IMG/VR virus record: IMGVR_UViG_3300009790_002951
Span: 1 to 44,676 of that record
Length of the DNA stretch: 44,676 bases
Strand: one strand, 5' to 3'
Source of the DNA: a virus
The notes below the pieces were generated by a model. It ran no database searches and was not told the origin of the DNA. It saw nothing but the letters and a program-made list of their open reading frames with translations. The translations under genes were made by a program, and so were the position numbers. This document shows positions 862 to 27,789 of this stretch, in pieces; positions within the stretch are counted from its first letter, which is position 1, and each line of letters starts with the position of its first letter.

Positions 862-2457
862 ATGATAGAAAAAACCCTGACTTTTACTGACGATGCCTGG
901 AATAAAATACGAAACGGCGTCCAGCAATTAAATAGAGCTGTAGGATCTACCCTGGGGCCAAATGGAAAAACAGTTATACTGGAGGATGCGCAAGGACGTC
1001 CACACGTAACAAAAGATGGAATTACTGTTGCAGAGAGCTTGTTGTTTTCAGATCCAGTAGAAAACCTGGCGATGAGTACGGTTAGGCAAGCCAGCAAAAA
1101 AACAGCGCTTCGCGCTGGAGATGGAACTACCACTTCGATAGTACTCAGTAATGCGATCATTGCTTTGACAAATCGAAGTTTAATCCGCAACATCCACCTC
1201 TACAAAAAAGGAATGTACGATGCTAAAGATTACGTTGTAGAAACTTTGAAGAAAAGCAGTAAAAAATTAAATAAAAAAGATTTACTTGCAGTTGCATCAT
1301 TATCGGCAAACAATGACAAAAGTATTGGGAAGTTAATTGCCGAGTCCTACGATAAGGTGGGGAAGGATGGAGTGGTTGCAGTAGAGCAATCTTACAACGA
1401 AGATAGTTATGTATCGATAAAAGAAGGAACTAAAATAGATCGAGGTTGGGCGACACACCACCTAGTCACGGATTTAAATAAACGTGAATTTGTTGCTCAA
1501 TCTCCTTTTATTTTCATATGTTCTACAGAAATACAAAGTGCACAGCAGATTCTTCCGATATTACAAAACTGTGCTGAAAGCAGTAAACAAATAATAATTG
1601 TAGCAGATACCTCAGAGGAGTTTCTTGCCACTATGATTTTAAACAACAACAAGGGAAGATTCAAAGCTTGTGTGATAAAACCAGCAGGGATAGGGTATAA
1701 GAGAGATGAATTGTTAGAAGACCTCGCCCTGATGACTGGATCAAAAGTTTTTTCAGAAGCACAAGGAAATGACTTTGGTCAAATAGATACAAGTTATCTA
1801 GGGACGGCAGATAAAGTTGTGGTTTCAGAAGGAGAGACAGTTTTGTTTACAACCCCAAAAGATCAGAAAAAAATAAAAAAACTACAAAAGCATATAGAAG
1901 ATAAGTTGGCTGATGAGAAGGAGGCAGATAACGAGTGGCATTTAAGAGACAGGCTTTCTAAATTAACTGGAGGTGTTGCTACGGTGCACGTGGGCGCATC
2001 TACAGAAGTCGAAATGAAAGAAAAAATGGATAGGGTTGATGATGCTATTAGTGCTACTCGTGCTGCTTTGAAGATGGGGGTGGTTCCTGGTGGAGGAGCA
2101 ACCTTGCTTCATATAGCTAAAGATATGAGGTTACGTATTCAAGACTCAAAGTATAAAGAGGAGGAAAGCTCATATTTAGAGGGCTGGAATGTTATGATAA
2201 AAGCTTTGGCTGCTCCAATAACTACAATCCTTTATAATGCTGGTATCACTGATAAAAGATTTTCAGAGGTTACTAAAGCTATAATGTCTGATACTCCAAA
2301 AACTGGATATAATGCTTTGACTGGAGAATTAGTGGATATGTATAAAGAAAAAATTCTCGATCCAACAGCTGTGACGATAAATGTAGTTGAAAATGCTGTA
2401 AGTGTTTGTGGTGAGCTTATAACAACAGAGTGTGTTGTAACAAACGTAAGAGCATGA
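862..2457 (+). CDS. groEL: Phage-encoded chaperonin GroEL (Cpn60)
   Basis: A 531-aa group I chaperonin that would form the ATP-driven folding ring, close to the usual ~545 residues. Diagnostic features are present in order: LGPNGKTVIL (31-40), TKDGITVA (50-57), the nucleotide-binding GDGTTT (86-91, with the equivalent of E. coli Asp87), the apical region from about 190 to 370, VEMKEKMDRVDDA (383-395, Asp394 matching catalytic Asp398) and the GVVPGGG loop (406-412). The apical groove appears changed: where E. coli has Tyr199, Tyr203 and Phe204, this protein has Trp196, His200 and Leu201. The Gly-Gly-Met C-terminal tail is missing; it ends with a Cys-containing segment. The stop overlaps the groES start (ATGA). 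Probable role: folding phage capsid or tail proteins. Family assignment is very secure. Confidence 0.97.
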   Translation: MIEKTLTFTDDAWNKIRNGVQQLNRAVGSTLGPNGKTVILEDAQGRPHVTKDGITVAESLLFSDPVENLAMSTVRQASKKTALRAGDGTTTSIVLSNAIIALTNRSLIRNIHLYKKGMYDAKDYVVETLKKSSKKLNKKDLLAVASLSANNDKSIGKLIAESYDKVGKDGVVAVEQSYNEDSYVSIKEGTKIDRGWATHHLVTDLNKREFVAQSPFIFICSTEIQSAQQILPILQNCAESSKQIIIVADTSEEFLATMILNNNKGRFKACVIKPAGIGYKRDELLEDLALMTGSKVFSEAQGNDFGQIDTSYLGTADKVVVSEGETVLFTTPKDQKKIKKLQKHIEDKLADEKEADNEWHLRDRLSKLTGGVATVHVGASTEVEMKEKMDRVDDAISATRAALKMGVVPGGGATLLHIAKDMRLRIQDSKYKEEESSYLEGWNVMIKALAAPITTILYNAGITDKRFSEVTKAIMSDTPKTGYNALTGELVDMYKEKILDPTAVTINVVENAVSVCGELITTECVVTNVRA

Positions 2458-2708
2458 AAGCATTAGGAGAATATATTGTTGTTAAGCCAGAAAAAGAAGA
2501 AATTGAATCTGGTGGTGTAATTTTATCTAGCAAGACTGATAAAAATGTTCGCTACGTAAAAGGCGTAGTTGAGTCTGTTGGTGGGAAGGTAAAAGAAGTT
2601 AGCCCAGGAGATGTGGTTTATTATGATAAAATGGCAACTTCTGAAATGCGAATATCAGGTGAGATTAAATTAGTTTTACTTGAAAATGGGATTGTTGTTA
2701 AGGAATAA
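2454..2708 (+). CDS. groES: Phage-encoded co-chaperonin GroES (Cpn10)
   Basis: An 84-aa Cpn10, about 10 residues shorter than typical. It shows the N-terminal strand with VVKP (9-12), a mobile loop around 16-31 containing the hydrophobic tripeptide in GGVILSS that docks onto GroEL, then GVVESVGG and PGDVVYYDK (51-59), and the C-terminal strand LVLLENGIVV. The ATG at 2454 overlaps the groEL stop in an ATGA arrangement and is preferred over an in-frame ATG 24 nt upstream, because the extra residues (MCCNKRKS) do not fit the family. Placement after groEL is the reverse of the usual groES-groEL order. The stop shares one base with the next start. Confidence 0.93.
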   Translation: MKALGEYIVVKPEKEEIESGGVILSSKTDKNVRYVKGVVESVGGKVKEVSPGDVVYYDKMATSEMRISGEIKLVLLENGIVVKE

Positions 2709-7028: not shown

Positions 7029-10000
7029 ATGCCTAGAATTAACACATACGATCTCGATACTACCCCAAGCCTTAGTGATAAGTGGATTGGGACAGATTCA
7101 GCGACAACAACAACCAAAAATTTTACGGTAAGCAGTATAATTAATTTGATCAATAGTAGTTCTGCTATTGATCATTTTGATGGTGTAACTTATGAGTTTA
7201 AAGCTATAGACTCTGAAAATCCAAACCCAACAGGGGTTATTTGTGTTACAGCAACTAATGTTTTAGCTACTGCCTTTTCTGCAATCAACAATATTTTTGT
7301 AAGTAAAGTACATGCAACAGGAGACGATGTTACTGCATATCTCCAAGCCATGGATAATGATACAATAAAAATAAACCAGGCTGGGAACTTAAATGCATTT
7401 GGAATATTTAAAGTTACAAATGTACAGACGTATAGTTCAGATTCAAACTTTTTGCAATTTACTTTGACTTACCAGTCAGGTAATGGGAGTTTAACTCCTA
7501 ATGAAAGATATTTTATATCGAACTATCAGGCAATTGAAAATATAGATTTTGCTACTAAATCAGTTACTGATCTAGGTGATGTGACAAACGCAGGATCAGG
7601 ATCTATTATAACAACAGGAGAAAGAGGTATAGTTGGAAATGCTTTGGTTCATAATGATGTTGTAGATAATTTAACAAGCACAAGCACAGATGTACCATTA
7701 TCAGCAAAACAAGGTAAAACATTAAATGACGCTATAACAGCAATAAACGCTTTACTGACTCTTAATCCTCCAAATGCCGCTTTAGATGAATTACAGGAAA
7801 TTGTAGCATACATAGAGACAAACAGAACAACATTAAATACTTTAGGTATATCAAATATTACTGGACTCCAGACAGCTTTAAATGATAAAGTAGATGTTGT
7901 TACAGGTAAAGGATTATCTACAAATGATTTTACAGCTACACTTCTTACAAAACTAAATGGGATTGCAGATGGAGCGGAGGTAAATGTAAAACCTAGTTGG
8001 ACGGCAGGTGCTGGGACAGCTGCGGAAATATTAAATAAGCCCACTGATTTAACAGATTTATCGACACATAATGTTACAGAATTAGCTGATGTTCTCGGCG
8101 CTGGTTCAGGTTATATAATTACAGATGCAGAAAGGGTTAAGTTAACTAATAGTGATGTAAATCCAACAACAAATGTAATAACAGATGGTTCAGATTCAAT
8201 AACAGTAACACCTCAAGCTAGAACAATAGAGCTTGCAGGAACATCTAACGAAGTTGAAGTTTCTCCTACAGGAGCTCAAGATTTAACTACAGACAGAACT
8301 TTTACAGTTGGCTTACCTAATGATGTGATTATAGGTAATAACTTAACTGTAACTGATGATTTACTTTCTAAAACAATAATAAGTAAATATATATCTACAA
8401 CAAAAACATACACAGTTACAGTTGCAACAAAAGCATCAACACATAGATATTATAATAGTGGATCAACAAGTGGATATGTTATAGATGGAGTGCCAGCTCC
8501 CTACATAACTTTAACACCTGGGAATACTTACAGGTTTGATATGTCAGACACAACAAATTCCACGCATCCATTATATTTCTTTTACAACTCGGATAAAAGC
8601 ATACCAACAGGGCTGTCGTCAAATAAATATATTACTGGTGTAACAGATAATTATTCTTCAAACGCACCAGGACAAAATGGTTCTTATATTGAGATTGTTG
8701 CCGATGAAAATACACCAACTGTATTACACTATATGTGTAATACTCACCCATTAATGGGTAATGCAGTTAATTTTAACACAAGAAATTTAAACGATTTTTC
8801 AATCAACGCTTTAGTTGATATAGACCTTACAGGTGTAGCGAACGATAAGATATTAAAATACAATTCATCTACAGGTAAATTTGAGGTTGCAGATGAAAGT
8901 GGAGGAACTGTAACTGAAACATTTAAAACAATTGCTGTTACAGGAACTTCTGGACAATCTGATGTTGTAGCAGACCAAGCCACAGACACACTTACTTTCA
9001 ATGCTGGATCAGGCATGAGTATTACTACTAATGCTTCAAATGATACAATAGAGTTTGAAAGTACAGCAACTGGAGGTACAGATTTAAACACTCTTAATGC
9101 AGCTACAATAGATGTAACTGCAGATAGTTTTGGATTTATTGATAGTAGTGATTCTAACAATAGTAAAAAATCAACTATTGCTAGTTTAGTTTCTGCTATA
9201 GCAGGTACAAATCTAACAGCAAGTAATGGTCAGCTTAACGCACAAGCTGGAGGTGGTGGAACCGTGTCAGTTGAAAAAAATGTATATACAGCAAATGGAA
9301 ACACATTTGGATTTGCAACAACTACTGCTATCGCAAACGAAAACAATGTACAGGTATATATAGATGGTGTTTATCAATCTAAAAATAATTACACTACAAG
9401 TGGCAGCACTGTAACATTTTCACCTACAGCACCAGCCAACGGAACTTCTGTTGAGCTTATACATATGGTTGAGTCTTCAGGTGTAATTGCAAGAGATACG
9501 TTTACTGGTGATAATACCACTACGGCTTTTACGCTTTCAATGTCTATAGCAAACGAAAATGCTACACAGGTATATATAGACGGAGTATATCAAAGCAAAG
9601 ATAATTACACGACAGCTGGTAGTGTTTTAACATTTACAAGTACTGCACCTGCAACTGGCACTTCAATAGAAGTTGTTCATATAAAAGCAGTTAATGCTTC
9701 GTCTATAAATCAAAATAACTTTACTGGTAATGGATCTCAAACATTTACATTATCACAAAGTATCGACGATGAAGCAAAAACATTTGTATTCATACAAGGC
9801 GTTTACCAAGAAAAATCAACTTACAGTATATCAGGAAATCAAATAACATTTAACACTGCGCCTCAAACTGGATTTACAGTAGAGGTTATGGCTTTTGATA
9901 GCATAACAGTTGGAAATCAAACAGTATCTTCATTTAATGGTCAAACAGGAGCTATAACAGGGGTAAATTCTGTAAATGGTCAAACAGGAGCCGTTACCTT

Positions 10001-11165
10001 AGGCACAGGAACTGATTGGCAAGCAACAATTCAAACATCAAATTTTACAGCTGAAGCAGGAAAAGGATATTTTGTTAACACAACATCAGGTATAATAACA
10101 GTAAGCCTACCTTCAGGAAGTGTGGGCGATGAAATAGAATTTCAAGACTATACTGGCACATTTGCCACCAATAAAATTAAGTTTACAGCAAACGGTACTG
10201 AAAAGATGCAAGGTAGTACTATAAATAAAAGATGTTCTATTAATAATGCTAGGGTAAGCTTAGTTTATCAAGATGCAACAGAAGGATGGACTGCTGATAA
10301 TATTGTATCAGACTTACCTCCTCTTGATGTGCATTTCTTAGTAGTAGCTGGAGGTGGCGGCGGCGGATCAGGATATTATAGTGGAGGTGGTGGAGCTGGA
10401 GGTCTTCGTACTTCTTGGCCAGGTGGCTCTGGTGGTGGAGCTAGTTCTGAAAATCAAAAAACAGGTATAGCAATGGATACTGATCATGCATTAGCAGTAG
10501 GTGGTTTGGGCGCAGGATCAACAAATACTAGTACTAGAGGTGCTAATGGCGGAAATTCTACTTTTATAGATATTACCTCAACAGGAGGTGGTGGTGGAGG
10601 TTCAAGAAACGGTCAACAACAAGGCGCAGATGGTGGATCTGGAGGGGGTAATGCCTACAACACAGGTGGCGCAGGACAAGGAGCACCTGCGCAAGGTTAT
10701 AATGGAGCAGGGGCTAGCACTCCTGATTATGGAACTGGTGGTGGTGGTGCAAGTGCAGCAGGACAGGCTACTTCAGGTGATGGAGGAGCTGGTTTAGCAG
10801 TAAATATAACAGGATCTTCAGTAGGATACGCTGGTGGTGGCGGTGGTGGTGGACTTGGTTCAACTTATCCCGTAGGTTCTGGAGGAGCTGGCGGCGGCGG
10901 AGCAGGTGGCGATGCTGTTAATTATCCATCTACATCTGGACCAGGTAGCAATGGTACTGCAAACACTGGTGGTGGTGGCGGTGGTACAGGAGGTGACATA
11001 GCTCAAGGTGGCAATGGAGGATCTGGTGTAGTTATTTTAAGGTATAGTAGTTCTTATACAATAACAAATTCAGGTGGTGGTTTATCATTTACTACAGCAA
11101 TCGTGGGTACAGATAAAGTAACAACTTTTACACAAGGAACAGGAAACATACAATTTACAGGATAA
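7029..11165 (+). CDS. Large modular tail fibre / adhesin with glycine-rich C-terminus (1378 aa)
   Basis: A 1378-aa, Ser/Thr/Gly/Asn-rich structural protein. Order of modules: an N-terminal anchor-like segment (MPRINTYDLDTTPSLSDKW); phage-fibre spacer motifs such as STDVPLSAKQGKTLN (about 218-232); a cupredoxin-like module (about 452-585) with THPLYFF and a late C-x2-H-x2-M motif; three tandem repeats of about 65 residues with VYIDGVYQSK (about 750-958); VNGQTGAVTL-type linkers; and from about residue 994 a beta-rich module leading to FLVVAGGGGGG and a roughly 250-residue glycine-rich adhesin domain ending GSGVVILRYSSS. The last domain resembles glycine-rich receptor-binding tips of phage fibres. 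The C-terminal module is repeated in the gene at 11529. Probable role: host recognition. Confidence 0.85.
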   Translation: MPRINTYDLDTTPSLSDKWIGTDSATTTTKNFTVSSIINLINSSSAIDHFDGVTYEFKAIDSENPNPTGVICVTATNVLATAFSAINNIFVSKVHATGDDVTAYLQAMDNDTIKINQAGNLNAFGIFKVTNVQTYSSDSNFLQFTLTYQSGNGSLTPNERYFISNYQAIENIDFATKSVTDLGDVTNAGSGSIITTGERGIVGNALVHNDVVDNLTSTSTDVPLSAKQGKTLNDAITAINALLTLNPPNAALDELQEIVAYIETNRTTLNTLGISNITGLQTALNDKVDVVTGKGLSTNDFTATLLTKLNGIADGAEVNVKPSWTAGAGTAAEILNKPTDLTDLSTHNVTELADVLGAGSGYIITDAERVKLTNSDVNPTTNVITDGSDSITVTPQARTIELAGTSNEVEVSPTGAQDLTTDRTFTVGLPNDVIIGNNLTVTDDLLSKTIISKYISTTKTYTVTVATKASTHRYYNSGSTSGYVIDGVPAPYITLTPGNTYRFDMSDTTNSTHPLYFFYNSDKSIPTGLSSNKYITGVTDNYSSNAPGQNGSYIEIVADENTPTVLHYMCNTHPLMGNAVNFNTRNLNDFSINALVDIDLTGVANDKILKYNSSTGKFEVADESGGTVTETFKTIAVTGTSGQSDVVADQATDTLTFNAGSGMSITTNASNDTIEFESTATGGTDLNTLNAATIDVTADSFGFIDSSDSNNSKKSTIASLVSAIAGTNLTASNGQLNAQAGGGGTVSVEKNVYTANGNTFGFATTTAIANENNVQVYIDGVYQSKNNYTTSGSTVTFSPTAPANGTSVELIHMVESSGVIARDTFTGDNTTTAFTLSMSIANENATQVYIDGVYQSKDNYTTAGSVLTFTSTAPATGTSIEVVHIKAVNASSINQNNFTGNGSQTFTLSQSIDDEAKTFVFIQGVYQEKSTYSISGNQITFNTAPQTGFTVEVMAFDSITVGNQTVSSFNGQTGAITGVNSVNGQTGAVTLGTGTDWQATIQTSNFTAEAGKGYFVNTTSGIITVSLPSGSVGDEIEFQDYTGTFATNKIKFTANGTEKMQGSTINKRCSINNARVSLVYQDATEGWTADNIVSDLPPLDVHFLVVAGGGGGGSGYYSGGGGAGGLRTSWPGGSGGGASSENQKTGIAMDTDHALAVGGLGAGSTNTSTRGANGGNSTFIDITSTGGGGGGSRNGQQQGADGGSGGGNAYNTGGAGQGAPAQGYNGAGASTPDYGTGGGGASAAGQATSGDGGAGLAVNITGSSVGYAGGGGGGGLGSTYPVGSGGAGGGGAGGDAVNYPSTSGPGSNGTANTGGGGGGTGGDIAQGGNGGSGVVILRYSSSYTITNSGGGLSFTTAIVGTDKVTTFTQGTGNIQFTG

Positions 11166-11167
11166 TT

Positions 11168-11542
11168 ATGGCACATTACGCTTTTTTAAATATGCAAAAT
11201 ATCGTTACTGATGTAATAACAGGTAAAGATGAAACTGAAGGGCCTAAAAACTGGGAAATACACTATGGAAATATACGTGAACAAGTTTGTAGGAGAACAT
11301 CATGTAATACAAAAGGAGGTCAACATTTAGATGGAAAAACTCCTTTTAGAAAAAACTATGCTGGAATTGGGTATACTTACGATGAAACCAGAGATGCATT
11401 TATTCCACCCAAGCCTTATGATAGTTTTGTTTTAAATGAAGATACGTGTTTATGGGAAGCTCCAATAGAAAAACCATCAGATGGTAAAGTATATGTGTGG
11501 GATGAGGATAATAAAAAATGGATAGAAAATGTCACAAACTAA
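11168..11542 (+). CDS. Fibre-associated protein, copy 1 (124 aa)
   Basis: A 124-aa protein opening MAHYAFLNMQNIVTDVITGKDE, with a central FRKNYAGIGYTYDETRDAFIPPKPYDSFVLNEDTCLWEAPIEKP (about 57-100). This pattern belongs to a small protein often found beside tail fibres in marine phages and cyanophages. It starts 3 nt after the large fibre gene. A paralogue of 123 aa lies at 12849, after the second fibre gene, so each glycine-rich fibre has its own copy. It may cap, fold or attach the fibre. The biochemical role is not known to me. Confidence 0.78.
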   Translation: MAHYAFLNMQNIVTDVITGKDETEGPKNWEIHYGNIREQVCRRTSCNTKGGQHLDGKTPFRKNYAGIGYTYDETRDAFIPPKPYDSFVLNEDTCLWEAPIEKPSDGKVYVWDEDNKKWIENVTN

Positions 11543-12842
11543 AGTAAAAAGAGAATTAATAGATGGATCGTTAGGAACTGATTGGCAGTCAGCTCCCAAA
11601 ACAACTAACTTTACAGCTGTTGCTGGACAGGGATATTTTGTTGATACAACTTCAAACACAGTAACTGTGACTTTACCTACTTCACCCAGCTCAGGAGATG
11701 AAATTATATTTCAAGATTACGCAGGGACTTTTACTACCAATAAAATAATATTAACATCAAGTGACAAAATACAAGGATCTACAAACGACTTTCTAAATAG
11801 CACAAACAATGCAACTATAAATTTAGTATACCAAAACACTGCTAAAGGTTGGACTGCTGATAATTTAACAACAATTATTCCTTCTTTTGATGTAGATTAC
11901 TTAGTTGTTGCAGGCGGTGGTGGTGGTGGAGGATATTATAGAGGCGGAGGTGGTGGAGCTGGAGGTCTAAGAACTTCTTATGGAGTAGGATCTGTTAATG
12001 CCCTTACATTAAATGTGGGTTCATCTTACACTGTTTCTGTTGGTCCTGGAGGTAGTGGTGGCTCAAATGGTCCAGGTTCTAATGGCACAAACTCTGTATT
12101 TGCTTCAATTACGTCAACAGGTGGTGGTAAAGGCACTAGCTATACATCTTCAGGAAATACTGGAGTTGATGGTGGCGATGGTGGATCTGGTGGAGGTTCT
12201 GGAGGCTCAGACGGAACTGCTGGTCAAGCTGGTTCAGGTAACGCTGGAAACTATACTCCATCTGAAGGCAATAATGGTGGTAGAGGACATTATCCTAGTG
12301 ATCCTGATTGCGGTGGTGGTGGTGGAGGCGCAGGTTCTGCTGGTAATGACGGTGGTAGCGGCTCAACTGATGGAGATGGTGGTGATGGTGTTACATCTTC
12401 TATTTTGAATGTCTCAAATATAGGAACAGGTGGTGGACAAGTAAATATAGGTGAAGTGATAAGTGGCGCTGTATGGTTTGCTGGAGGTGGCGGAGGTGCT
12501 AGTTATGAAACTGGAAATCATGCAATACCTGGCAAAGGTGGGGGTGGGATTCCTTCAAATCCAGGTAATTCGTCTCCAAACAGCTATCCTGGCAATGGAG
12601 CTGATGGAGCCCCTAATTCAGGAGGTGGAGGTGGAGGTGGCTCTGGAGAAAGCAATCCCTCTTCGGGTGTAGGTGGCACTGGTGCATCAGGAGTAGTTAT
12701 ATTGAGATATACGTCTCAAGTTTCGATTTCAAATCCGAATGGAGGATTAAATTTTACTACTTATACGGAAACTACAACATCAGCTAATGATACTAGTGTT
12801 ACAGTTTTTACAGGCGGAAGTGGAATTATACAATTTAGTTAA
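11529..12842 (+). CDS. Short tail fibre / glycine-rich adhesin, paralogue of the 7029 C-terminus (437 aa)
   Basis: A 437-aa protein that is essentially the C-terminal third of the 1378-aa fibre as a separate gene. After a short N-terminal tag (MSQTKVKRELIDG), residues 16-120 repeat the TDWQ...NFTA...GQGYFV...DEIIFQDYAGTF.TNKI...KGWTADNL module. VDYLVVAGGGGGGG and a long glycine-rich stretch to GASGVVILRYTSQ follow. The start overlaps the previous gene by 14 nt. It lacks the spacer, cupredoxin-like and YIDGVYQ repeats. It may be a second receptor-binding tip with altered specificity. Poly-Gly stretches are encoded by mixed GGT/GGA/GGC codons. Confidence 0.82.
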   Translation: MSQTKVKRELIDGSLGTDWQSAPKTTNFTAVAGQGYFVDTTSNTVTVTLPTSPSSGDEIIFQDYAGTFTTNKIILTSSDKIQGSTNDFLNSTNNATINLVYQNTAKGWTADNLTTIIPSFDVDYLVVAGGGGGGGYYRGGGGGAGGLRTSYGVGSVNALTLNVGSSYTVSVGPGGSGGSNGPGSNGTNSVFASITSTGGGKGTSYTSSGNTGVDGGDGGSGGGSGGSDGTAGQAGSGNAGNYTPSEGNNGGRGHYPSDPDCGGGGGGAGSAGNDGGSGSTDGDGGDGVTSSILNVSNIGTGGGQVNIGEVISGAVWFAGGGGGASYETGNHAIPGKGGGGIPSNPGNSSPNSYPGNGADGAPNSGGGGGGGSGESNPSSGVGGTGASGVVILRYTSQVSISNPNGGLNFTTYTETTTSANDTSVTVFTGGSGIIQFS

Positions 12843-12848
12843 AAAATT

Positions 12849-13220
12849 ATGGCACACTATGCAATTTTAAATATGTCTAATGTAGTTACGAAAGTAATTA
12901 CAGGTAAAGATGAAGGTGATACAGATACAAATTGGGAACTTTTTTATCAAGATATTTTCAAACAGGTATGTAAAAGAACCTCTTATAACACTAGATTTGG
13001 AAAACATGTATTAGGCGGTACCCCATTTAGAAAGAATTATGCAGCCGTAGGATACACTTATGATCAACAAAGAGACGCATTTATTCCACCTAAACCTTTT
13101 GATAGTTGGGTTTTAAACGAAGACACCTGCAACTGGGTGGCTCCAATACAAAGGCCAGATAATGATAAAATAAATTTGTGGAACGAAAATGATAAAACTT
13201 GGACACAAATAGATCACTGA
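12849..13220 (+). CDS. Fibre-associated protein, copy 2 (123 aa)
   Basis: A paralogue of the 124-aa protein at 11168: both begin MAHYA-LNM-N-VT-VITGKDE and share FRKNYA-GYTYD--RDAFIPPKP-DS-VLNEDTC-W-API. The C-terminal ends differ (RPDNDKINLWNENDKTWTQIDH here). It follows the 437-aa fibre by 6 nt. The pairing of one such protein with each glycine-rich fibre indicates that they work together, for example as fibre tip, chaperone or attachment protein. Confidence 0.78.
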   Translation: MAHYAILNMSNVVTKVITGKDEGDTDTNWELFYQDIFKQVCKRTSYNTRFGKHVLGGTPFRKNYAAVGYTYDQQRDAFIPPKPFDSWVLNEDTCNWVAPIQRPDNDKINLWNENDKTWTQIDH

Positions 13221-14147: not shown

Positions 14148-17100
14148 ATGTTAGGTAAAAGACTAATCAATACTGGAGGAGCTGAAGCCTGTACAACAGA
14201 TACTACGCAAATATTAGACGCAGGGGCAACTCAATCTACAGCCTTATATAGGTTTGAAGATAATGCAAATGATACTGCATATACTGCTGGAACTACAATA
14301 AGCTCTTTTAAAATAATTGATTTAGATGTTAATGGATATTCAAGTGGAGCAACAATATCTAATTCAGCTTCAAATACCGATGACGCAGCTATAGTAGGTA
14401 ATGTAACTTACAGTAATCCTTCAGGAAGTAACGGTAGATTTGATTTAGATGGGGCTAGCGATTATTTACAAATAGACGCAAATACAACATTTAATGGTGC
14501 TACTAACTATACTTTAGAGGGGTGGTTTAAACCAGACAACTTAACTGCAGTAGACCATTTCTTTGCAATACATGATGGATCGAGTGGTAGTAAATTTTAT
14601 GTAAGGTTAAATGATGCGCAAGGCGATATTGATGCACTTGTTTATGGTAGCACAGGTACAGGAAGCTCCGCGGCTACTGTAGTAACAAGTAATACGGCAG
14701 CTAGAGTACAAGCAAATGTTTTTAATCATGTTGTAATGACTTATACAGATGGATCAGGAGGACTTCTATCTATATATATAAATGGGGTTTTGGCAGGATC
14801 AGCTGCTGCTACAGGAAACGGAAACACAACAGGCACTGCAGACTTGCTTATTGGATCATTAGGAGGTTATATCGGATCATATGATTTCGATGGTGAAGTG
14901 GGTCAAGTAAGGTTTTATATTAGCGCTTTAAGTGCAACTGAAGTTTTGCAAAATTATAATGCCACAAGAGCTCTTTATGCAGCCAATCATGGCACTGCAT
15001 CTAATGTAACTTATGCTGCAGGCAAGTTTGATAAAGCTGGTGTATTTAATGGTAGCTCTTCTAAAATAGCTTTACCTGCAATACTACCAACAAACAGCAC
15101 AGCAGATTCATCTGTTTCTTTTTGGTTTAAATATTCAGGTGGACAGTCTGGTACAGGTACTTTATTTAGTTCATATGGTGGTAATAGTGCTCAGCCTGGT
15201 TATCATTTAGGACTTGAGGCCGCTTATACTTGGAATGGTGTTAATTACCCTGATGGTAGCCTTTTTTTAACAGGTTACTCTATGGGTACAGGATCTGGTG
15301 TAAATGGAACAACAAGCTATGCAGATGGAGCGTGGCACCATGTAGTTGTTACTTATGATTTTTCAACAGGCGTTTTAAGCTGTTTTGTTGATAATGCATC
15401 TTCTGCCACACTAAGTGTATCTTTTACTTCAAGGCCATCAACTATTGGTCCTTTTTCACAAAGTGGGGATATTGGCTATCAATTGCATGGTGGGCCTCAC
15501 AGATACGCTAAATGTAGTATAGATCAATTTAGAATATTTGATAAAGAATTAACTACATCTGAGATAAACAGTCTTTATAATGAAACCGCAGCTTCAGCAG
15601 CATCAGGAACAATAGATAATCCATCTACTGTTGCATATTATAAAATGGCTGATGCTACAGATGAAACTGGTTCTTATAATGGAACAGCTACAAGTGTAGA
15701 TTTTAATGTTCAAGGAAAATATGGTTTTGCTGGAAAATTTAGTGGTGCTGGAAGTAACGTAGAAACAACTTTAGCTAATTCAAATTTTACATCTAATTAC
15801 TCTATATCACTTTGGGTAAACTTAACTAATGCTAATGTATTTCAAAATTTTGTTGGTAATTATAAATCTTCTGGCGGTTATGGAGGTTTCACCTTTATGA
15901 GTAGAAATGCTGGAGGTGGAGTTTATAGATTTGGTTTTATATGGTGGACTGGGTCAGGAAGTAATTATAATTTTGTACAGAATTCAGATGTTGTTGCAAC
16001 TTCAGGAACTTGGGTGCATTTAGTTGCAACCAAAATTTCAGGTGTATTGCCTATATTATATGTTAATGGAACTGCAAATTCTTTGTATTATGATAATTCT
16101 GACACAGAACACGGAACAACTGGCGAAAACTTCAAAATTGGCAACACTTTAAACAGTAATTATAGTGCTGGAAAAATAGATCAAGTAAGAATATTTAACA
16201 AAGCAATCAGTGCTTCAGAAGTTACAAAACTTTATAATGAAGTACAATGTGATCCCCTTATAACAACCCCTGAAAATTATTTTAATACAAAACTATATAC
16301 TGGTAATGGTGGAACTCAAGCTATGACAGGTGTAGGTTTTGCTCCTGGAATGACTTGGATTAAAGCTAGATCAGTAGGCTATTCTCATTCATTACAAGAT
16401 ATTTTAAGAGGTCCTGGTACTTCAACCTCCTTATACCCAGATTTAAATTCATCTGCAGGAACTTATGGTGCGTATGGACAAATTATTTCTTTTGATACAG
16501 ATGGTTTTACTGTAGCAAGCGGAGGACACGGAAGTTACCCTGTTGCGCAAGTAAATCAAAATGGGGTTACTTATGCGTCATGGAACTGGAAAGCAGCTTT
16601 AGCTAGTTTTTCAACTAGCTTTAATGGAAGTAGTAGTAAAATAGAAGTAACAAATAGTGGAAATGTATTTGAAGCTGTAGGTGGATTTAGTGCATCTGTT
16701 TGGGTTAATAGAAACACAACTGCAAATCAAACAATATTAAATAAAGAAGGTGCTGTTTCAGGTTCTTATGGGTGGTCATTGAGATACAGTTCAGGCGCAG
16801 GATATTCTTACGATTTATATGACACAAGTGATAATATGGTAACTGTTTCTACAGGAGCTAACTCAACCACAGGAACTTGGGAGCATGTAGTAATATCATT
16901 TAACAATAGTGATAATAAACTTCGTATTTATTATAATGGAGGAACCCCTTCTGTTTCAAGTGCTTTATCTTCAGCAGCAAGCTCAAATACAGAGAATTTT
17001 TTTATAGGAGCAAGAACAAATTCAGGAATTGTTACAGATGGTAATTTAGCACAAGTAAGGATATATTCAACAGCTGTAACCGACGCTCAAGCATCTAATT

Positions 17101-18953: not shown

Positions 18954-19175
18954 ATGAATAATTATATTAGAAAAATTTCTATTGGATCAGATTACAAAAA
19001 TGCTATGCATTATGTTGTTGATCAAGATGTTATGGGTGGTTCGTGGAAGATCCACGCTGTATCGCAGGATGAAGAGGGATATCATTTGTGGATACAGAAA
19101 AATGAAGAAATAAAAAAATGGAAATTTTTCAGTATAAATACTCCAATTACAATAGAATATAATGTTAACTTTTAG
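18954..19175 (+). CDS. Small conserved phage protein (73 aa)
   Basis: A 73-aa protein, MNNYIRKISIGSDYKNAMHYVVDQDVMGGSWKIHAVSQDEEGYHLWIQK...; its N-terminal half resembles a small protein commonly placed beside tail or packaging genes in marine phages. It has a mixed alpha/beta look with no cysteines and no membrane segment. The stop overlaps by 14 nt with the double GroES-like gene, so the two are probably translated together. Function unknown. Confidence 0.68.
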   Translation: MNNYIRKISIGSDYKNAMHYVVDQDVMGGSWKIHAVSQDEEGYHLWIQKNEEIKKWKFFSINTPITIEYNVNF

Positions 19176-19722
19176 GCCCACAAAATCTTTTTTAGTAAAG
19201 CCAAAAAACAATCAAGAATATAATAGGGAGAAAAATGGTGTAATAATCACCTCTTCAATAGAAAATGCTAAAGACGTAAATCGTTTTGGTATTATAGAAA
19301 AAACCCCTTTGTCTTATACAGGGGATTTAAAAGAAGGTGATGAAGTAGTTTTGCATCATAATGTTTTTCGTTCATATTATGATATAAAAGGCAACGAAAG
19401 AAAGAGCAATGAGTATTTCAAAGATAATTTGTATCTTGTATCATCTAATAAAATTTATCTTGTTAAAAAAAATAATAACTGGGTTAGCTTTGATGATTAT
19501 TGTTTTGTCTCTCCGAAAGACGAGGAGAATATGGAAGTTTCGCTAGGAGCATACGAGCTTCATAAAGGAACAGTAAAATATATAAATGACAATTTAATTA
19601 GTCAGGGGCTGACAGATGGGATGGAAGTAGGGTACACAAAAGACAGCGAATATGAATTTGAGGTAGAAGGTGAAATGCTATATAGAATGAGAAGTAAAGA
19701 TATATGTGTGGAATTTAGTTAA
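19162..19722 (+). CDS. Tandem double GroES-like (Cpn10) protein (186 aa)
   Basis: I read this 186-aa protein as two Cpn10-like domains in series. Domain 1 (about 8-103): FLVKPK, a loop with NGVIITSS (25-32) like the mobile loop GGVILSS of the phage's own GroES, RFGIIEKTP, LKEGDEVVLHHNVFR and the closing strands NLYLVSSNKIYLV. Domain 2 (about 112-185): DYCFVSP, HKGTVKYIND, LTDGMEVGYTKDSEYEFEVEGEMLYRMRSKDICVEF, which follows the GroES ending GD-V-F-----Y---I---E-LIM--SDILA closely. Domain 2 seems to lack a long mobile loop. It lies just upstream of the packaging and capsid genes. It may act with the phage or host GroEL on capsid or tail proteins. This assignment is by pattern, not by search. 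Confidence 0.62.
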   Translation: MLTFRPTKSFLVKPKNNQEYNREKNGVIITSSIENAKDVNRFGIIEKTPLSYTGDLKEGDEVVLHHNVFRSYYDIKGNERKSNEYFKDNLYLVSSNKIYLVKKNNNWVSFDDYCFVSPKDEENMEVSLGAYELHKGTVKYINDNLISQGLTDGMEVGYTKDSEYEFEVEGEMLYRMRSKDICVEFS

Positions 19723-20276: not shown

Positions 20277-20376
20277 CAGAAAAGATCCTGAACAAGTAAA
20301 ATTAGCACAAGTACTATGGCATGAAATAGTTATAGATGAAAAAAGATATAAAAAACACTATACAAAGAGTAATTGA
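20173..20376 (+). CDS. Small lipoprotein, o-spanin-like (67 aa)
   Basis: A 67-aa protein with a clear type II signal peptide: MKK, a hydrophobic core IIIPAFILLMMG and the lipobox cysteine at position 16. The mature part (about 51 residues) is charged and helical. A short outer-membrane lipoprotein whose start is embedded out of frame in an upstream gene is the classic o-spanin arrangement, as for Rz1. With the membrane coiled-coil protein at 19815 it would disrupt the outer membrane at lysis. The lipobox (LMMGC) is not perfect. It overlaps the next gene by 41 nt. Confidence 0.65.
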   Translation: MKKIIIPAFILLMMGCAGQRQAQMEVYRKLTKDIDRKDPEQVKLAQVLWHEIVIDEKRYKKHYTKSN

Positions 20377-20632
20377 TGCAGGAGAAAAAGCTGTTGAAGA
20401 GCTTATTAAAGTTGCGCATGATGAAATAATTACTGATGATCCATCAGAAGATTTAGCGGCAGATAGATTGAAAAATGCAGCTGCTACAAAAAAACTTGCA
20501 ATATTTGATGCTTTTGAAATATTAAGTAGGATAGAAATAGAAAAAGAAAAATTAGAAAATGGTGAGTCAGCAGATTCTAAAAAAGAAGAAACCTTTAAAG
20601 GTTTTGCTGAATCGAGAGGAAGAAAGTCTTAG
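20336..20632 (+). CDS. Putative small terminase subunit (98 aa)
   Basis: A 98-aa, helical, acidic protein directly before and overlapping the large terminase gene by 74 nt. The core DLAADRLKNAAATKKLAIFDAFEILSRIEIEKEKLE (about 39-74) is a pattern I associate with small proteins at this position in marine phages. Position, size and helical content fit a small terminase subunit that recognises phage DNA, but no DNA-binding motif is obvious. Alternatively it is an unrelated packaging accessory protein. Confidence 0.55.
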   Translation: MKKDIKNTIQRVIDAGEKAVEELIKVAHDEIITDDPSEDLAADRLKNAAATKKLAIFDAFEILSRIEIEKEKLENGESADSKKEETFKGFAESRGRKS

Positions 20633-22853
20633 TCTTTATACTGTAATTGGGAGCATACCAGAATCAGATAAATTAAAGAAAAACAAATCCTCGTCTTGGG
20701 AATATGGTTATAATGCTAATTACGATGTAGTTGTAATATCTAAAAACGGAAAAGTAGGTGATGTAATCAACATAAACGGAGTAAAAATAGCATTACCTTT
20801 GCAACCAAAAAAGGTTGAGTCTAGAAGCAAAAAAACGTCAGAACAATATTGGGAAGCGAAAGAATACCCAAAAGAATTATTTAAGATCAAGACCGTTTTC
20901 CAGTGGAATGAGTACTCGTCTGTATTCAAAGAATCATGGGTTGATTACATCGAAAACGAATTTGAAAGGAGAGAAAATGGTTATTGGTTTAAAAACAACG
21001 GTGTCGATACTTATATTACTGGCTCTCATTACATGTACTTGCAATGGACCAAGATTGATGTTGGGCTCCCAGAGTTCAGAGAATCTAATAGAATATTCTT
21101 TATCTACTGGGAAGCGTGTAAAGCCGACAATAGGTCTTATGGAATGTGCTATCTTAAAAACAGAAGGTCAGGCTTCTCTTTTATGTCTTCAGCAGAATCC
21201 GTTGCTCAAGCGACAATTACTTCAGATGCACGGTTTGGGATATTGTCCAAATCTGGAGCTGATGCTAAAAAAATGTTTACAGACAAGGTTGTACCAATAT
21301 CTACAAACTACCCCTTCTTCTTCAAACCAATTCAAGACGGAATGGATAGACCTAAAACAGAACTTGCCTACAGAGTGCCAGCATCAAAACTTACAAGAAA
21401 AAACATTGAACAAAAGCAAACAGATGAGTTGGCAGGACTCGATACCACAATTGACTGGAAAAATACTGGAGACAATTCCTATGATGGAGAAAAACTCAGA
21501 CTCCTTGTACATGATGAATCTGGGAAGTGGGAACGTCCAGATAATATCCTCAACAGTTGGCGCGTCACTAAAACTTGTCTTCGATTAGGAAGAAGAGTTA
21601 TAGGAAAATGCATGATGGGCTCTACGTCTAACTCTTTAGATAAAGGTGGATCAAATTTTAAAAAATTATTTTATGATTCAAATCCTTTAGAAAGAAATGC
21701 TAATGGTCAAACAAAAACAGGATTGTATAATTTATTTATTCCCATGGAGTGGAATATGGAAGGCTTTTTAGATAAGCATGGCCATCCAGTTTTTAGAACA
21801 CCAGAAGTGCCAGTAGTTGATATTCATGGAGAATATGTTTTTCAAGGTGTTTTGGATTATTGGGAAAACGAAGTTGAATCGTTAAAAAATGATCCAGATG
21901 CTTTGAATGAATTTTATAGGCAGTTTCCTAGATCAGAAAATCATGCATTTAGGGATGAATCAAAAAACAGTTTATTTAATCTTCAAAAGATATACGAGCA
22001 AATAGATTATAATGACACAAACGGAACATATAGTTATGTTGATAGAGGAGATTTTCATTGGGAAAATGGAGAGAGAGGAACAAATGTTGTGTGGACACCA
22101 ACAAGAAATGGGAAATTTTATGTAACTTGGTTGCCGCCTAAAGAATTAAAAAATAATGTGCGTCGAGACAATAACAAGTATTATCCACTTAATGTTCATA
22201 TTGGCTCTTTTGGCTGTGATAGTTATGACATTTCTGGAGTAGTTGGAGGTAGCGGATCTAAAGGAGCTCTGCATGGTTTGACAAAAGTAAATTTTGACAA
22301 TGCACCATCAGAGTTGTTTTTTTTAGAATACATAGCAAGACCTCAAACAGCAGAATTGTTTTATGAAGATGTTTTGATGGCTTGTCATTTTTACGGCATG
22401 CCAATATTAGTTGAAAATAACAAACCTAGATTGTTATATTATTTGAAAAATAGAGGTTATAGAGCATTTGCTATGAATCGTCCTGATAAATTAAAGAATG
22501 ATTTATCAAAATCAGAAAAAGAATTAGGTGGAATACCATCATCACAGCCAGTAATTTCTGTTCATGCAGAAGCAATTGAAGCTTATATTGAAAGAAATGT
22601 TGGTGTTGATGCTATAGGAACGTACAGAGAAATGGGAGATATAGGTAAAAAAATGTATTTTATGAGAACCCTTAAAGACTGGTCAAACTATAATATATTT
22701 AATAGAACGAAGTTTGATGCAACAATAAGTTCTGGTTTAGCTATAATGGCAAATCAGAGATACATAACTAAGCCTGAGAAAAAGCGTAGCAAAATAAGTG
22801 TTAACTTTGCAAAGTACGACAACTCAGGTCTGAATAGCGAAATTATAAAATAG
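20559..22853 (+). CDS. terL: Terminase large subunit (TerL)
   Basis: A 764-aa DNA-packaging motor with ATPase and nuclease domains. Visible motifs: a variant Walker A KNRRSGFS (200-207), Walker B LRLLVHDE with Asp319-Glu320, a coupling-motif-like MMGSTSN (352-358), and an RNase H-like nuclease start FGCDSYD (about 551-557) followed by later acidic residues. The protein is longer than many TerL, with an N-terminal extension of about 90 residues. The first ATG (20559) overlaps the preceding gene by 74 nt and lies in a Lys-rich segment; a somewhat later non-ATG start is possible. The portal gene follows after 4 nt, the usual packaging order. Confidence 0.9.
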   Translation: MVSQQILKKKKPLKVLLNREEESLSLYTVIGSIPESDKLKKNKSSSWEYGYNANYDVVVISKNGKVGDVININGVKIALPLQPKKVESRSKKTSEQYWEAKEYPKELFKIKTVFQWNEYSSVFKESWVDYIENEFERRENGYWFKNNGVDTYITGSHYMYLQWTKIDVGLPEFRESNRIFFIYWEACKADNRSYGMCYLKNRRSGFSFMSSAESVAQATITSDARFGILSKSGADAKKMFTDKVVPISTNYPFFFKPIQDGMDRPKTELAYRVPASKLTRKNIEQKQTDELAGLDTTIDWKNTGDNSYDGEKLRLLVHDESGKWERPDNILNSWRVTKTCLRLGRRVIGKCMMGSTSNSLDKGGSNFKKLFYDSNPLERNANGQTKTGLYNLFIPMEWNMEGFLDKHGHPVFRTPEVPVVDIHGEYVFQGVLDYWENEVESLKNDPDALNEFYRQFPRSENHAFRDESKNSLFNLQKIYEQIDYNDTNGTYSYVDRGDFHWENGERGTNVVWTPTRNGKFYVTWLPPKELKNNVRRDNNKYYPLNVHIGSFGCDSYDISGVVGGSGSKGALHGLTKVNFDNAPSELFFLEYIARPQTAELFYEDVLMACHFYGMPILVENNKPRLLYYLKNRGYRAFAMNRPDKLKNDLSKSEKELGGIPSSQPVISVHAEAIEAYIERNVGVDAIGTYREMGDIGKKMYFMRTLKDWSNYNIFNRTKFDATISSGLAIMANQRYITKPEKKRSKISVNFAKYDNSGLNSEIIK

Positions 22854-22857
22854 CAAT

Positions 22858-25272
22858 ATGCTAAACGACGATTTTAAAATTGCCAATATATCCTTTCCAG
22901 ATCAGTTAGCTTCTGACTCTGTTAAAAAGACAAAGGAATATGGGCTATCTGTAGGTAAGGCTATAGAATCAGAGTGGTTTAGAAAAGACAATGGTGCTGC
23001 TCGTTTTTACAACAACAGAGATAATTTTCATAAACTAAGGCAATACGCTAGAGGTGAGCAATCTGTTCAAAAGTATAAAAACGAATTAGCAATAAATGGA
23101 GACACGTCATATCTTAATTTAGACTGGACTCCTGTCCCACTAGTTCCAAAATTTGTAGATGTAGTAGTAAATGGTATGTCAAACAGGCTGTTTGATGTCA
23201 AAGTGGAGGCTATCGATGATGTCGCAAGAGCTAGAAGAGATAGTTATAGGAATCTCATAGAAGATGATATGATGGCTAAACCTGTATTAGAAATGTTACA
23301 GGGCGCTAGCGGAAACAACCTTTTTAATTCAGATCCAGAGAAACTTCCTGAAACTGATGAAGAATTAGAGTTACATATGCAGCTTTCTTATAAGCAAAGG
23401 ATAGAAGTTGCAGAAGAAAAAGCATTAGAAGCTATATTGGATGTTAATGACTATGAGCTTATCAAAAGACAGGTTGATGAAGACGCCACTGTATTAGGTT
23501 TGTCAGCAGTTAAACATTCTTTCAATACGCATGATGGTATTAAAATTGAATATGTGGATCCTACTCAAATGGTTCATTCTCCAACAGAAGATCCTAATTT
23601 TAACGACTGTTATTATTTTGGCGAAGTAAAAAATGTTAATATTACAGAACTTAAAAAAATAGATCCTTCTTTAACGCAAGAAGAGATAAAAGATATATCT
23701 AAGCTTAGTGCAAAATGGGATGCTTATCAGGGTATTAGAGGGGGATACAAAACAGATAATTTTGATTCAAACACCGCAACTTTGTTATATTTCTGTTATA
23801 AAACAGATAGAAGTATAGTTTATAAAGTAAAAGAAAATAATAACGGTGGAAGAAGAGCTATACGAAAAAATGAAAATTTTAACCCACCAAAAACTGAAGC
23901 TGCAAGATTTGAAAAAAAATCCAAAAGAATAGATGTTTGGTATGAAGGAGTTGTTGTTTTAGGTACAAATACAGTATTAAAATGGGAGTTAATGAAGAAT
24001 ATGGTTAGACCAAAATCAGGAATTCAAAAAGCTCTAGCACCATATATCCTTAGTGCGCCAAAAATGTATAGAGGGCAAATAGATTCTTTAGTAAAAAGAA
24101 TGATTCCTTTTGCAGACCAAATACAATTGACTCATTTGAAACTACAACAAGTAATTTCTAAAATGATCCCAGATGGGGTGTATTTAGATTTAGATGGTAT
24201 AGCTAGTGTAGATTTAGGAAACGGAGCAATGTATAATCCTAATGAAGCACTAAATATGTATTTTCAAACAGGAAGTGTTGTTGGTCGTAGTTTTACGGAA
24301 GATGGAGAATTTAACAATGCAAAAATACCTGTACAAGAACTTAATGGTTCTGGATCAAATGCAAAAATATCATCATTAGTAAATATGTATAATCATTACG
24401 TTACTATGATAAGAGACGTTACTGGTATAAATGAGGCTAGAGATGGATCTATGCCAGACTCAAAAACTTTAGTGGGCGTCCAAAAATTAGCTGCATTAAA
24501 TTCTAATACAGCAACAAGACATATTCTTGATTCAGGATTAAGATTAACAAAAAGACTTATTGATTCTGTATCTTACAGATTTGCAGATATGATTGAATAT
24601 ACTGACATGAGAGAGTCTCTCATGAATATGATAGGGGCTAAATCTGTTGATATTATAGATGAAATTAAAGATGTGCACCTGCATGATTTTGGAATTGAAA
24701 TTGAATTACACCCAGACGAAGAAGAAAGAAATATATTAGAACAAAGCATTCAGTTGGCTTTATCAAATCAAATGATTGATTTGAATGATGCAATAGATGT
24801 TAGAAATATAAAAAACATAAAGCTAGCCAATGCTCTTTTGAAAATTAGAAAAGAGAAAAAAGAAGGTTTGGATATGAAGAAGAAAAAAGCAAATATTGAT
24901 ATGCAAACACAATCTAATGTCCAATCTTCTACAGCAGCATCTAACAATAACATAAAAGAGATGCAAATGAAAACTCAAACTGAAATTCAGATATTACAAC
25001 AAAAACATACTTTGGAGATAGAAAGAATGAATAAACAAGCAGAAATAGATATGATGCTTCAGAAACAAAAATTAGAGATGGGTATGATGGTAAAGCAGTC
25101 TGAATTATCACAGTTGTCTGCAAGAGAAAAAACAAGAGAGGATCGTAAAGATCAACGAGTAGATAAACAAAGTGAAAATCAATCAATACTTATAGATCAA
25201 AGAAAATCAAACAAAACAGCACAACAGTTTACAAATAATACGCAAGGAATAGTAGATGAGTTACTTAGCTAA
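22858..25272 (+). CDS. Portal protein
   Basis: An 804-aa protein directly after TerL and before the scaffold and capsid genes, the standard position of the portal. The N-terminal and central part (about 1-640) is mixed alpha/beta, with the typical long helices (LQLTHLKLQQVISKM..., NHYVTMIRDVTGINEARDGS, KTLVGVQKLAALNSNTATRHILDSGLRL). That last stretch, a conserved-looking I-DVTGINEARDGSMPDSKTLVG (about 520-542), resembles the portal tunnel-loop region of short-tailed phages. The last 140 residues are a Gln/Lys/Met-rich coiled coil. The protein forms the dodecameric DNA entry channel. The length suggests a podovirus-type portal with a long barrel. Confidence 0.85.
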   Translation: MLNDDFKIANISFPDQLASDSVKKTKEYGLSVGKAIESEWFRKDNGAARFYNNRDNFHKLRQYARGEQSVQKYKNELAINGDTSYLNLDWTPVPLVPKFVDVVVNGMSNRLFDVKVEAIDDVARARRDSYRNLIEDDMMAKPVLEMLQGASGNNLFNSDPEKLPETDEELELHMQLSYKQRIEVAEEKALEAILDVNDYELIKRQVDEDATVLGLSAVKHSFNTHDGIKIEYVDPTQMVHSPTEDPNFNDCYYFGEVKNVNITELKKIDPSLTQEEIKDISKLSAKWDAYQGIRGGYKTDNFDSNTATLLYFCYKTDRSIVYKVKENNNGGRRAIRKNENFNPPKTEAARFEKKSKRIDVWYEGVVVLGTNTVLKWELMKNMVRPKSGIQKALAPYILSAPKMYRGQIDSLVKRMIPFADQIQLTHLKLQQVISKMIPDGVYLDLDGIASVDLGNGAMYNPNEALNMYFQTGSVVGRSFTEDGEFNNAKIPVQELNGSGSNAKISSLVNMYNHYVTMIRDVTGINEARDGSMPDSKTLVGVQKLAALNSNTATRHILDSGLRLTKRLIDSVSYRFADMIEYTDMRESLMNMIGAKSVDIIDEIKDVHLHDFGIEIELHPDEEERNILEQSIQLALSNQMIDLNDAIDVRNIKNIKLANALLKIRKEKKEGLDMKKKKANIDMQTQSNVQSSTAASNNNIKEMQMKTQTEIQILQQKHTLEIERMNKQAEIDMMLQKQKLEMGMMVKQSELSQLSAREKTREDRKDQRVDKQSENQSILIDQRKSNKTAQQFTNNTQGIVDELLS

Positions 25273-26436: not shown

Positions 26437-27789
26437 ATGAGTGTAACAATGTCACCAACGCCAGCTAATGTACCCATTACGCCAGCGCCGACAAAGTCGA
26501 CATTATCGACTAACTACATCACTAGTTTTGACTTTTTAAGTCAATATCTACCTGATGTTTATGAAAAAGAATTCGAAAGGTATGGAAATAGATCTATTGC
26601 GTCTTTTTTAAGACTAGTAGGAGCTGAAATACCTTCTAACTCTGACCTTATCAAATGGACAGAGCAAGGACGTTTGCATACAATCGTTAAGAGTGCCACA
26701 AGAAGTGCAGAAGTTATTACTTCAACTGGTCACCCTTTTAGATTGAATCAAACTGTAATCATTTCTGATGGTACTAACACTGCCAAAGCTTTAATTACTT
26801 CTGTAAACGCTAACGGAAACGCATTTACTGTTTCTGCTTACGGTGCAGCTAATTTAACTGCTGCAGGAATGACTGGAACAACTGGACTAACTGTATTCGT
26901 TTATGGTTCTGAATTTAAAAAAGGAACTAACGGAATGGACGGAAGTTTAGAAGCTAACCCTGTTATCTTCGAAAACAACCCTATTATAATCAAGGACAAG
27001 TATGAAGTTGCTGGTTCTGATTTAGCACAAGTGGGTTGGATTGAGGTTACTACAGAGAATGGAGCTACTGGATATCTATGGTATTTAAAATCTGAGCATG
27101 AAACAAGACTGCGTTTTGAAGATTACTTAGAGACTGCTATGGTTGAAGGTGAGCCTGCTGCATCTGGATCAGCTGCTGCGACTGCTGGTTACAATGGTAC
27201 AAAAGGTTTATTCCATGAAGTTGAAAATAGAGGAAACGTTGCTACAGGTTCTATTGCTGCAAAAACAGACGTAGAAGCTATTGTAAAAGTTTTAGATAAG
27301 CAAGGTGCAATTCAAGAAAACGTTATTTTCTCTGCTAGAGATAAGTCTTTTGAAATAGACAATATGCTAGCAGCTCAGAATAACTTTGGTTCTTCAGGAG
27401 CATCTTACGGTTTGTTTGACAATGATAAAGACATGGCTTTAAATTTAGGATTTGCTGGATTTAATATTGGTTATGATTTTTATAAAACTGACTGGAAATA
27501 TCTAAACGATGCTACAACTAGAGGAGCAATCGGTGATATCGATGGTATCGTAGTTCCTGCTGGTACTACAACTGTTTATGATCAAGTACTTGGTAAAAAC
27601 GCTAAAAGACCTTTCTTACACGTACGTTTTAGAAAGAGTGAAGCTGAAGACAGAAAGTATAAGACTTGGGTAGTTGGTTCTGCTGGCGGAGCTGGAATGA
27701 GTAGCGACCTAGACGCAATGCAAGTTCACTTCTTAAGTGAAAGAGCACTATGTGTTATGGGAGCGAATAACTTCGTTATCATGAAGTAA
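26437..27789 (+). CDS. Major capsid protein
   Basis: A 450-aa protein, followed by a strong terminator, in the position of the major capsid protein. The N-terminus is Pro/Thr-rich, then LSTNYITSFDFLSQYLPDVYEKEFERYGNRSIASFLRL (23-60). A region of about 84-160 (VITSTGHPFRLNQTVIISDG...LTVFVYGSEF) looks like an inserted beta-rich domain. The C-terminal part (FLHVRFRKSEAEDRKYKTWVVGSAGGAGM...MQVHFLSERALCVMGANNFVIMK) matches the HK97-type ending of marine phage capsid proteins that I recognise. Codon choice is richer in C-ending codons than in neighbours, which fits high expression. AACCTTTAAAA lies 11 nt before the start. Confidence 0.88.
   Translation: MSVTMSPTPANVPITPAPTKSTLSTNYITSFDFLSQYLPDVYEKEFERYGNRSIASFLRLVGAEIPSNSDLIKWTEQGRLHTIVKSATRSAEVITSTGHPFRLNQTVIISDGTNTAKALITSVNANGNAFTVSAYGAANLTAAGMTGTTGLTVFVYGSEFKKGTNGMDGSLEANPVIFENNPIIIKDKYEVAGSDLAQVGWIEVTTENGATGYLWYLKSEHETRLRFEDYLETAMVEGEPAASGSAAATAGYNGTKGLFHEVENRGNVATGSIAAKTDVEAIVKVLDKQGAIQENVIFSARDKSFEIDNMLAAQNNFGSSGASYGLFDNDKDMALNLGFAGFNIGYDFYKTDWKYLNDATTRGAIGDIDGIVVPAGTTTVYDQVLGKNAKRPFLHVRFRKSEAEDRKYKTWVVGSAGGAGMSSDLDAMQVHFLSERALCVMGANNFVIMK

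Follow-up and report, generated by a model that had tools for sequence, protein, structure and literature searches.

A phage groEL-groES pair accompanied by a double-domain co-chaperonin gene: a probable three-part chaperonin set in a phage lineage likely associated with Bacteroidota

Phage chaperonins studied so far either combine the host GroEL with one phage lid, as in the case of T4 gp31, or are lidless, as are those of phages EL, OBP and AR9. T4 gp31 and RB49 CocO are phage-encoded co-chaperonins that replace or supplement GroES and rely on the GroEL of the host, whereas the phage analyzed here brings its own GroEL along with two lids. The chaperonins of EL, OBP and AR9 are GroEL homologues encoded by phages and, like the one described below, altered in their inter-ring contacts, but they function without a lid (PMC7185714, PMC9598537), and in the EL protein the R197/E386 salt bridge is lost and the groove remodelled (PMC7185714). 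In our phage, groES is coupled to groEL, the apical groove of GroEL is conserved and the protein is far more similar to bacterial GroELs. GroELs like this one are found in the Pervagoviridae phages phi38:1 and Calle and in the 'group 2' Bacteroidetes phages of Nishimura et al. (2017), having been reported in such phages from marine viromes (PMC5332604), and both GroEL and GroES have been reported in Maribacter phage Panino (PMC11590407). Pervagoviridae core proteins include a 'chaperonin cpn10', listed without mention of two domains (PMC8776804). Outside phages, single- and double-domain lids occur together in chloroplasts, where they most likely form mixed rings of sevenfold symmetry (PMC5780408). 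Our search of the open-access literature, with most subscription journals lying outside its range, returned no paper on phage tandem co-chaperonins or on a two-lid phage arrangement, and how two lids serve one phage chaperonin apparently has been unstudied so far.

The DNA analyzed (hereafter the window) is the whole 44,676-nucleotide stretch of virus record IMGVR_UViG_3300009790_002951, a 44.7 kb sequence with terminase, portal and structural genes. The features relevant to this work are listed in Table 1. The terminase is 65% identical to that of MW202828 and 42% identical to that of Elemovirus (Flavobacterium phage elemo, NC_055853), and since the terminase, portal and structural proteins match those of Flavobacteriaceae phages, the host is probably a Bacteroidota bacterium. 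The probable major capsid protein also gave a weak, sub-threshold match to Crass_capsid. Both Elemovirus and MW202828 share with the window the groEL-groES order, a Cpn10-type 'co-chaperonin GroES' gene upstream of the terminase and the same structural gene order, but their GroELs are only 33-37% identical to that of the window and carry YEFEGF and YSSNLF in place of the W/H/L apical motif described below. Elsewhere in the window, two very long fibre/adhesin-like proteins of 1378 and 1599 aa are encoded at 7029-11165 and 14148-18947, the first of them with Pfam matches to DUF4183, Gly_rich_2 and phage fibre repeats. A paralogous pair of proteins of around 124 aa (MAHYA[FI]LNM...) is found at 11168-11542 and 12849-13220, each following a glycine-rich fibre-like ORF, and the region 35374-38639 holds 2OG-Fe(II) oxygenase, O-fucosyltransferase-like and NAD-epimerase genes amid tail genes, possibly a cassette for virion glycosylation or decoration.

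Table 1. Coordinates, strand and profile matches of the chaperonin, packaging and head genes of the window.
Feature	Coordinates	Strand	Profile matches and remarks
groEL, phage group I chaperonin, 531 aa	862..2457	+	Pfam PF00118 (Cpn60) E 1.4e-52; phrog_5725 'chaperonin groEL' E 7e-130
groES, single-domain co-chaperonin, 84 aa from ATG	2454..2708	+	Pfam PF00166 (Cpn10) E 1.7e-8; phrog_3188 E 2.8e-9
Double-domain co-chaperonin of 186 aa (Cpn10-type domains at ~1-104 and ~105-186, fused)	19162..19722	+	phrog_13932 'co-chaperonin GroES' E 4.7e-19
Small ORF between double-domain co-chaperonin and terminase	20336-20632		
Large terminase subunit	20559..22853	+	phrog_6681 E 2.8e-175; fixes phage lineage
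Portal protein, candidate chaperonin client	22858..25272	+	phrog_6547 E 5.6e-150
Probable major capsid protein (virion structural protein of 450 aa), candidate client	26437..27789	+	phrog_13704 E 9.5e-112

The first-pass annotation had described a groEL gene preceding groES, coupled to it by ATGA and encoding a protein without the GGM tail, and this description holds: the groEL stop codon (TGA, 2455-2457) overlaps the groES ATG at 2454, and the GroEL C-terminus reads ...TTECVVTNVRA, while 71 of the 82 bacterial GroELs compared have a GGM tail. The Cpn60 match covers the full length of the protein (profile positions 1-488 of 490), its AlphaFold2 model shows continuous secondary structure with a mean pLDDT of 86.9, and the ATP-site residues D52, D87, GDGTTT and D398 (D394 here) are kept. 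In a loop alignment, the GroES mobile loop was seen to retain the GGVIL motif. Comparison with relatives gave dN/dS values of 0.09-0.15 for groEL and 0.04-0.07 for groES, which indicate that both genes are maintained by purifying selection; given these low ratios and the motif conservation in relatives presented below, we consider the pair a real feature under selection. Promoter searches gave three matches to the Bacteroidetes-type pattern TTTG-N17-23-TANNTTTG, with 3.6 expected, and fewer sigma-70-like promoters between positions 500 and 3600 than in shuffled sequences. No weight was given to a single 10/12 sigma-70-like match located upstream of groEL, at 787-814.

Maximum-likelihood GroEL trees were obtained with 102 rows and with 70 rows, the latter without the longest branches. 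In the larger tree the window falls inside a group of 42 phage rows (SH-aLRT 90); Elemovirus and the locus L023 branch just outside it, and all bacteria lie in a 55-row set across a branch with SH-aLRT 96. Phages that group with the bacteria seem to have acquired their groEL separately. AR9 GroEL forms a separate, very long branch in this tree, and the window was not placed with AR9-like sequences. In the smaller tree the split between phages and bacteria has a length of 0.58 and SH-aLRT 100, and in both the window groups with other phages of groEL-groES order. These results bear on the possibility of a recent acquisition of the pair from a bacterial host, followed only by a change of gene order. 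The GroEL of the window is around 39% identical to many Bacteroidota GroELs, about as much as to those of other phages, and when the profile of its group was compared with solved structures in the PDB, the best match was a reconstructed ancestral Fibrobacteres-Chlorobi-Bacteroidetes GroEL, both of which could be taken in favor of such an acquisition. However, no bacterial match above 39% identity appeared among the best 80 genome loci, and the trees place the GroEL in a phage clade separated from bacteria by a long branch, so that a recent host origin can be rejected as highly improbable. The earlier claim against recent copying from a host was thus supported, and the pair was not placed within any bacterial genus sharing its gene order and residues. 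The affinity with the ancestral GroEL at most suggests an old origin near Bacteroidota.

The order of the two genes had also been read as a sign of specialisation. We examined 80 IMG/VR contigs retrieved with an alignment of seed GroELs having the groEL-groES order, a selection by similarity that informs about a lineage-wide trait and not about its frequency among all phages. In this set groEL precedes groES in 68 contigs, the reverse is true in two, and groES is not nearby in the other 10. Of the 70 related viral contigs in which groES adjoins groEL, 68 thus share this order, which is also present in the annotated isolates Elemovirus, Panino and MW202828, so the notion that it is peculiar to this phage had to be rejected: phages of a widespread GroEL clade have it in common, and as such it says nothing about specialisation of this particular phage. 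The groEL-groES pair itself is a lineage trait of known phages. On the other hand, groES comes first in phi38:1, immuto and DAC19; phi38:1 resembles the window in having a single Cpn10 and a double-domain Cpn10 upstream of the terminase, and differs in the groES-groEL order, with an ORF in between. Where a bacterial GroEL had groES nearby (75 cases), groES was first in 72 and the reverse was observed in three. These three loci (L140, L162 and L170), of the Planctomycetota/Brocadia type, combine the groEL-groES order and H203 with GGM tails, which means that neither the reversed order nor H203 is exclusive to phages. The viral contigs L006-L010 encode GroELs around 34% identical to that of the window, and Cpn10 was absent from the three whole records searched among them.

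Residues of the apical domain were located using the E. coli GroEL sequence as a ruler; Tyr199, Tyr203 and Phe204 fell at the expected numbering. The reading that the first-pass annotation gave to the apical site was only partly supported. The three substitutions are there (Y199 to W196, Y203 to H200 and F204 to L201), as part of a WATHHL motif at residues 196-201, but the other five hydrophobic positions are still hydrophobic (L231, L234, L255, I259 and L260, equivalent to E. coli L234, L237, L259, V263 and V264). Overall, five of the eight positions of the H/I groove are hydrophobic, with W and L at two more and H at 203. The motif does not derive from a sequencing error, since WA[ST]HHL is conserved in four close IMG/VR relatives with 73-86% identity. 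In bacterial GroELs, Y199 is found in 80 of 82 sequences and F204 in 77, and Y203 also in 77, with H in the other five. In the clade of the window, position 199 is W or Y, position 203 is H and position 204 is L or M, and L234, L237, L259 (mostly), I263, L264, R197 and E386 are kept. A large viral clade, comprising most of loci L257-L334, is more strongly altered, with L199, H203, Q234, K259, C/S197 and K386, so that its substrate and lid groove departs far more from the canonical one than that of the window. The presence of H203 in five of 82 bacterial GroELs and of L199/H203 along with Q234/K259 in this clade weakens the idea of an apical site unique to our phage, and the apical residues would make a weak argument for specialisation, although a GroEL specialised for phage proteins would be plausible.

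Lid binding is probably preserved in the window GroEL, considering the five hydrophobic apical positions and the GGVIL motif retained in GroES. The inter-ring residues K105, A109, R452, S463 and V464 are not kept, and the D83-K327 salt bridge is lost. With this divergence, the protein could possibly be single-ringed, in place of the staggered double heptamer of group I chaperonins. The same changes would fit a GroES-independent open ring of the EL/OBP/AR9 type, with the phage lids acting mainly on the host GroEL in the manner of T4 gp31, a scheme with which the presence of lids without a GroEL in Cellulophaga phage phi18:3 (see below) is also compatible. We regard it as quite improbable, however, in view of the translational coupling of groES to groEL, the purifying selection on both genes, the hydrophobic character of the apical groove, and the conservation of R197 and E386, unlike in EL. 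A lid-using chaperonin with a shifted substrate preference is what we would expect from these residues.

The packaging module of the window contains a second co-chaperonin gene, upstream of the terminase, that was absent from the first-pass annotation. The C-terminal half of its product matched GroES with an HHalign probability of 97%; the N-terminal half, the weaker of the two by sequence, reached 81% (80.8%) with a phage-rich GroES set and 28% with bacterial GroES alone, while reversed-sequence controls gave around 1%. An AlphaFold2 model built from 55 sequences had moderate confidence (pLDDT 77.8, pTM 0.73), and its best Foldseek matches in the PDB were two chains of 7ekq (E 2.7e-5, for 7ekq_R, and 3.3e-4), which the PDB sequence table lists as Cpn20 co-chaperonin subunit and Chaperonin 23, followed by ordinary GroES. 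A literature search for PDB 7EKQ found no paper. As in chloroplasts with Cpn20 and Cpn10, a predicted tandem Cpn10 fold exists beside a single-domain Cpn10 and one chaperonin system. There are differences, though: superposition of the two domains on Cpn20 gave an rmsd of 6.8, the loop of the second phage domain is short, and sequence orthology is undetectable, with no Cpn20 chain in a profile search up to E 1. The likeness to plastid Cpn20 is therefore one of architecture, without detectable common descent. The domain 1 loop is 26-30 aa long and has a hydrophobic triad at positions 27-29 (hydrophobic in 100, 98 and 71% of the members), and the domain 2 loop is 15-19 aa long, with a hydrophobic pair in most members. 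By sequence, the domain 1 loop and the GroES loop match the GroEL-binding loop motif.

At least 587 IMG/VR loci encode relatives of the 186-aa protein. The terminase gene is downstream in 84 of 84 relatives, with gaps of -3 to 1270 bp, and in the lineage of the window the double-domain gene is never beside groEL, so a different job for its product, for example at the terminase, is conceivable. The groEL-groES pair alone would then constitute the chaperonin, and the 186-aa Cpn10-fold protein would have been repurposed for packaging or head assembly, perhaps as a terminase or portal partner, with no contact with GroEL. The lack of a long loop in domain 2 would agree with this, as would the case of phi18:3 (KC821620.1; Pachyviridae), whose complete genome has no GroEL and retains a single Cpn10 (1109-1363) and a double-domain Cpn10 (11459-12061). 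We nevertheless find such repurposing unlikely, because loop 1 has the length and the hydrophobic triad of a GroEL-binding loop and because GroEL or a single Cpn10 accompanies the gene in all records that allowed a judgement. A single Cpn10 was present in 18 of 18 records having both GroEL and the double-domain gene. According to record counts, the 77 isolate or reference phage records with this gene also carry GroEL, all of them lying in groups where the number of GroEL records agrees. Seven contigs that have the double-domain gene and no GroEL say little, since they stop 0.3-11 kb upstream of that gene. Also against repurposing, the distant Flavobacterium phage MaF61 (PQ858689.1) encodes a 187-aa tandem Cpn10 (2415-2978) directly upstream of a divergent groEL, and another, single Cpn10 elsewhere in its genome. 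This tandem protein, which matches plastid Cpn20 in phmmer (E 1.6e-8), was discarded as a close homologue of that of the window, and is likely independent of it or very distant, given that neither BLASTP nor HHalign gave a meaningful match. Single and double lids therefore recur in phages, with or without a phage GroEL, and phi18:3 shows that they do not require one; having both lids and no GroEL, it also indicates that phage lids may act on the host GroEL.

We consider most probable, with some reservation, that the window encodes a dedicated, vertically inherited phage chaperonin for late phage proteins, consisting of GroEL, the coupled single-domain GroES and the double-domain Cpn10 lid. The GroEL ring would be a heptamer closing over unfolded protein with the phage lids, and would work during infection, folding late proteins such as the capsid, portal or terminase, while the double-domain protein might form a lid of its own or combine with GroES into mixed lids, the arrangement likely for Cpn20 and Cpn10 in chloroplasts. 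A more elaborate version is put forward tentatively and may well not be correct: one GroEL ring with mixed single- and double-domain Cpn10 lids, reached independently of chloroplast Cpn10/Cpn20, in which the double-domain lid would be expressed together with the late genes and adapt the cage to capsid and packaging proteins.

The three-part set with two lids is a more interesting point than the groEL-groES pair. Numerous phages that probably infect Bacteroidota encode the complete machine together with both types of lid; if the two lids act on one ring, these phages would offer a small, testable system for the question posed by chloroplasts, i.e. why a sevenfold ring is provided with single- as well as double-domain lids. 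The existence of cultured members, Elemovirus, phi38:1, Calle and Panino, makes this system testable in laboratory hosts.
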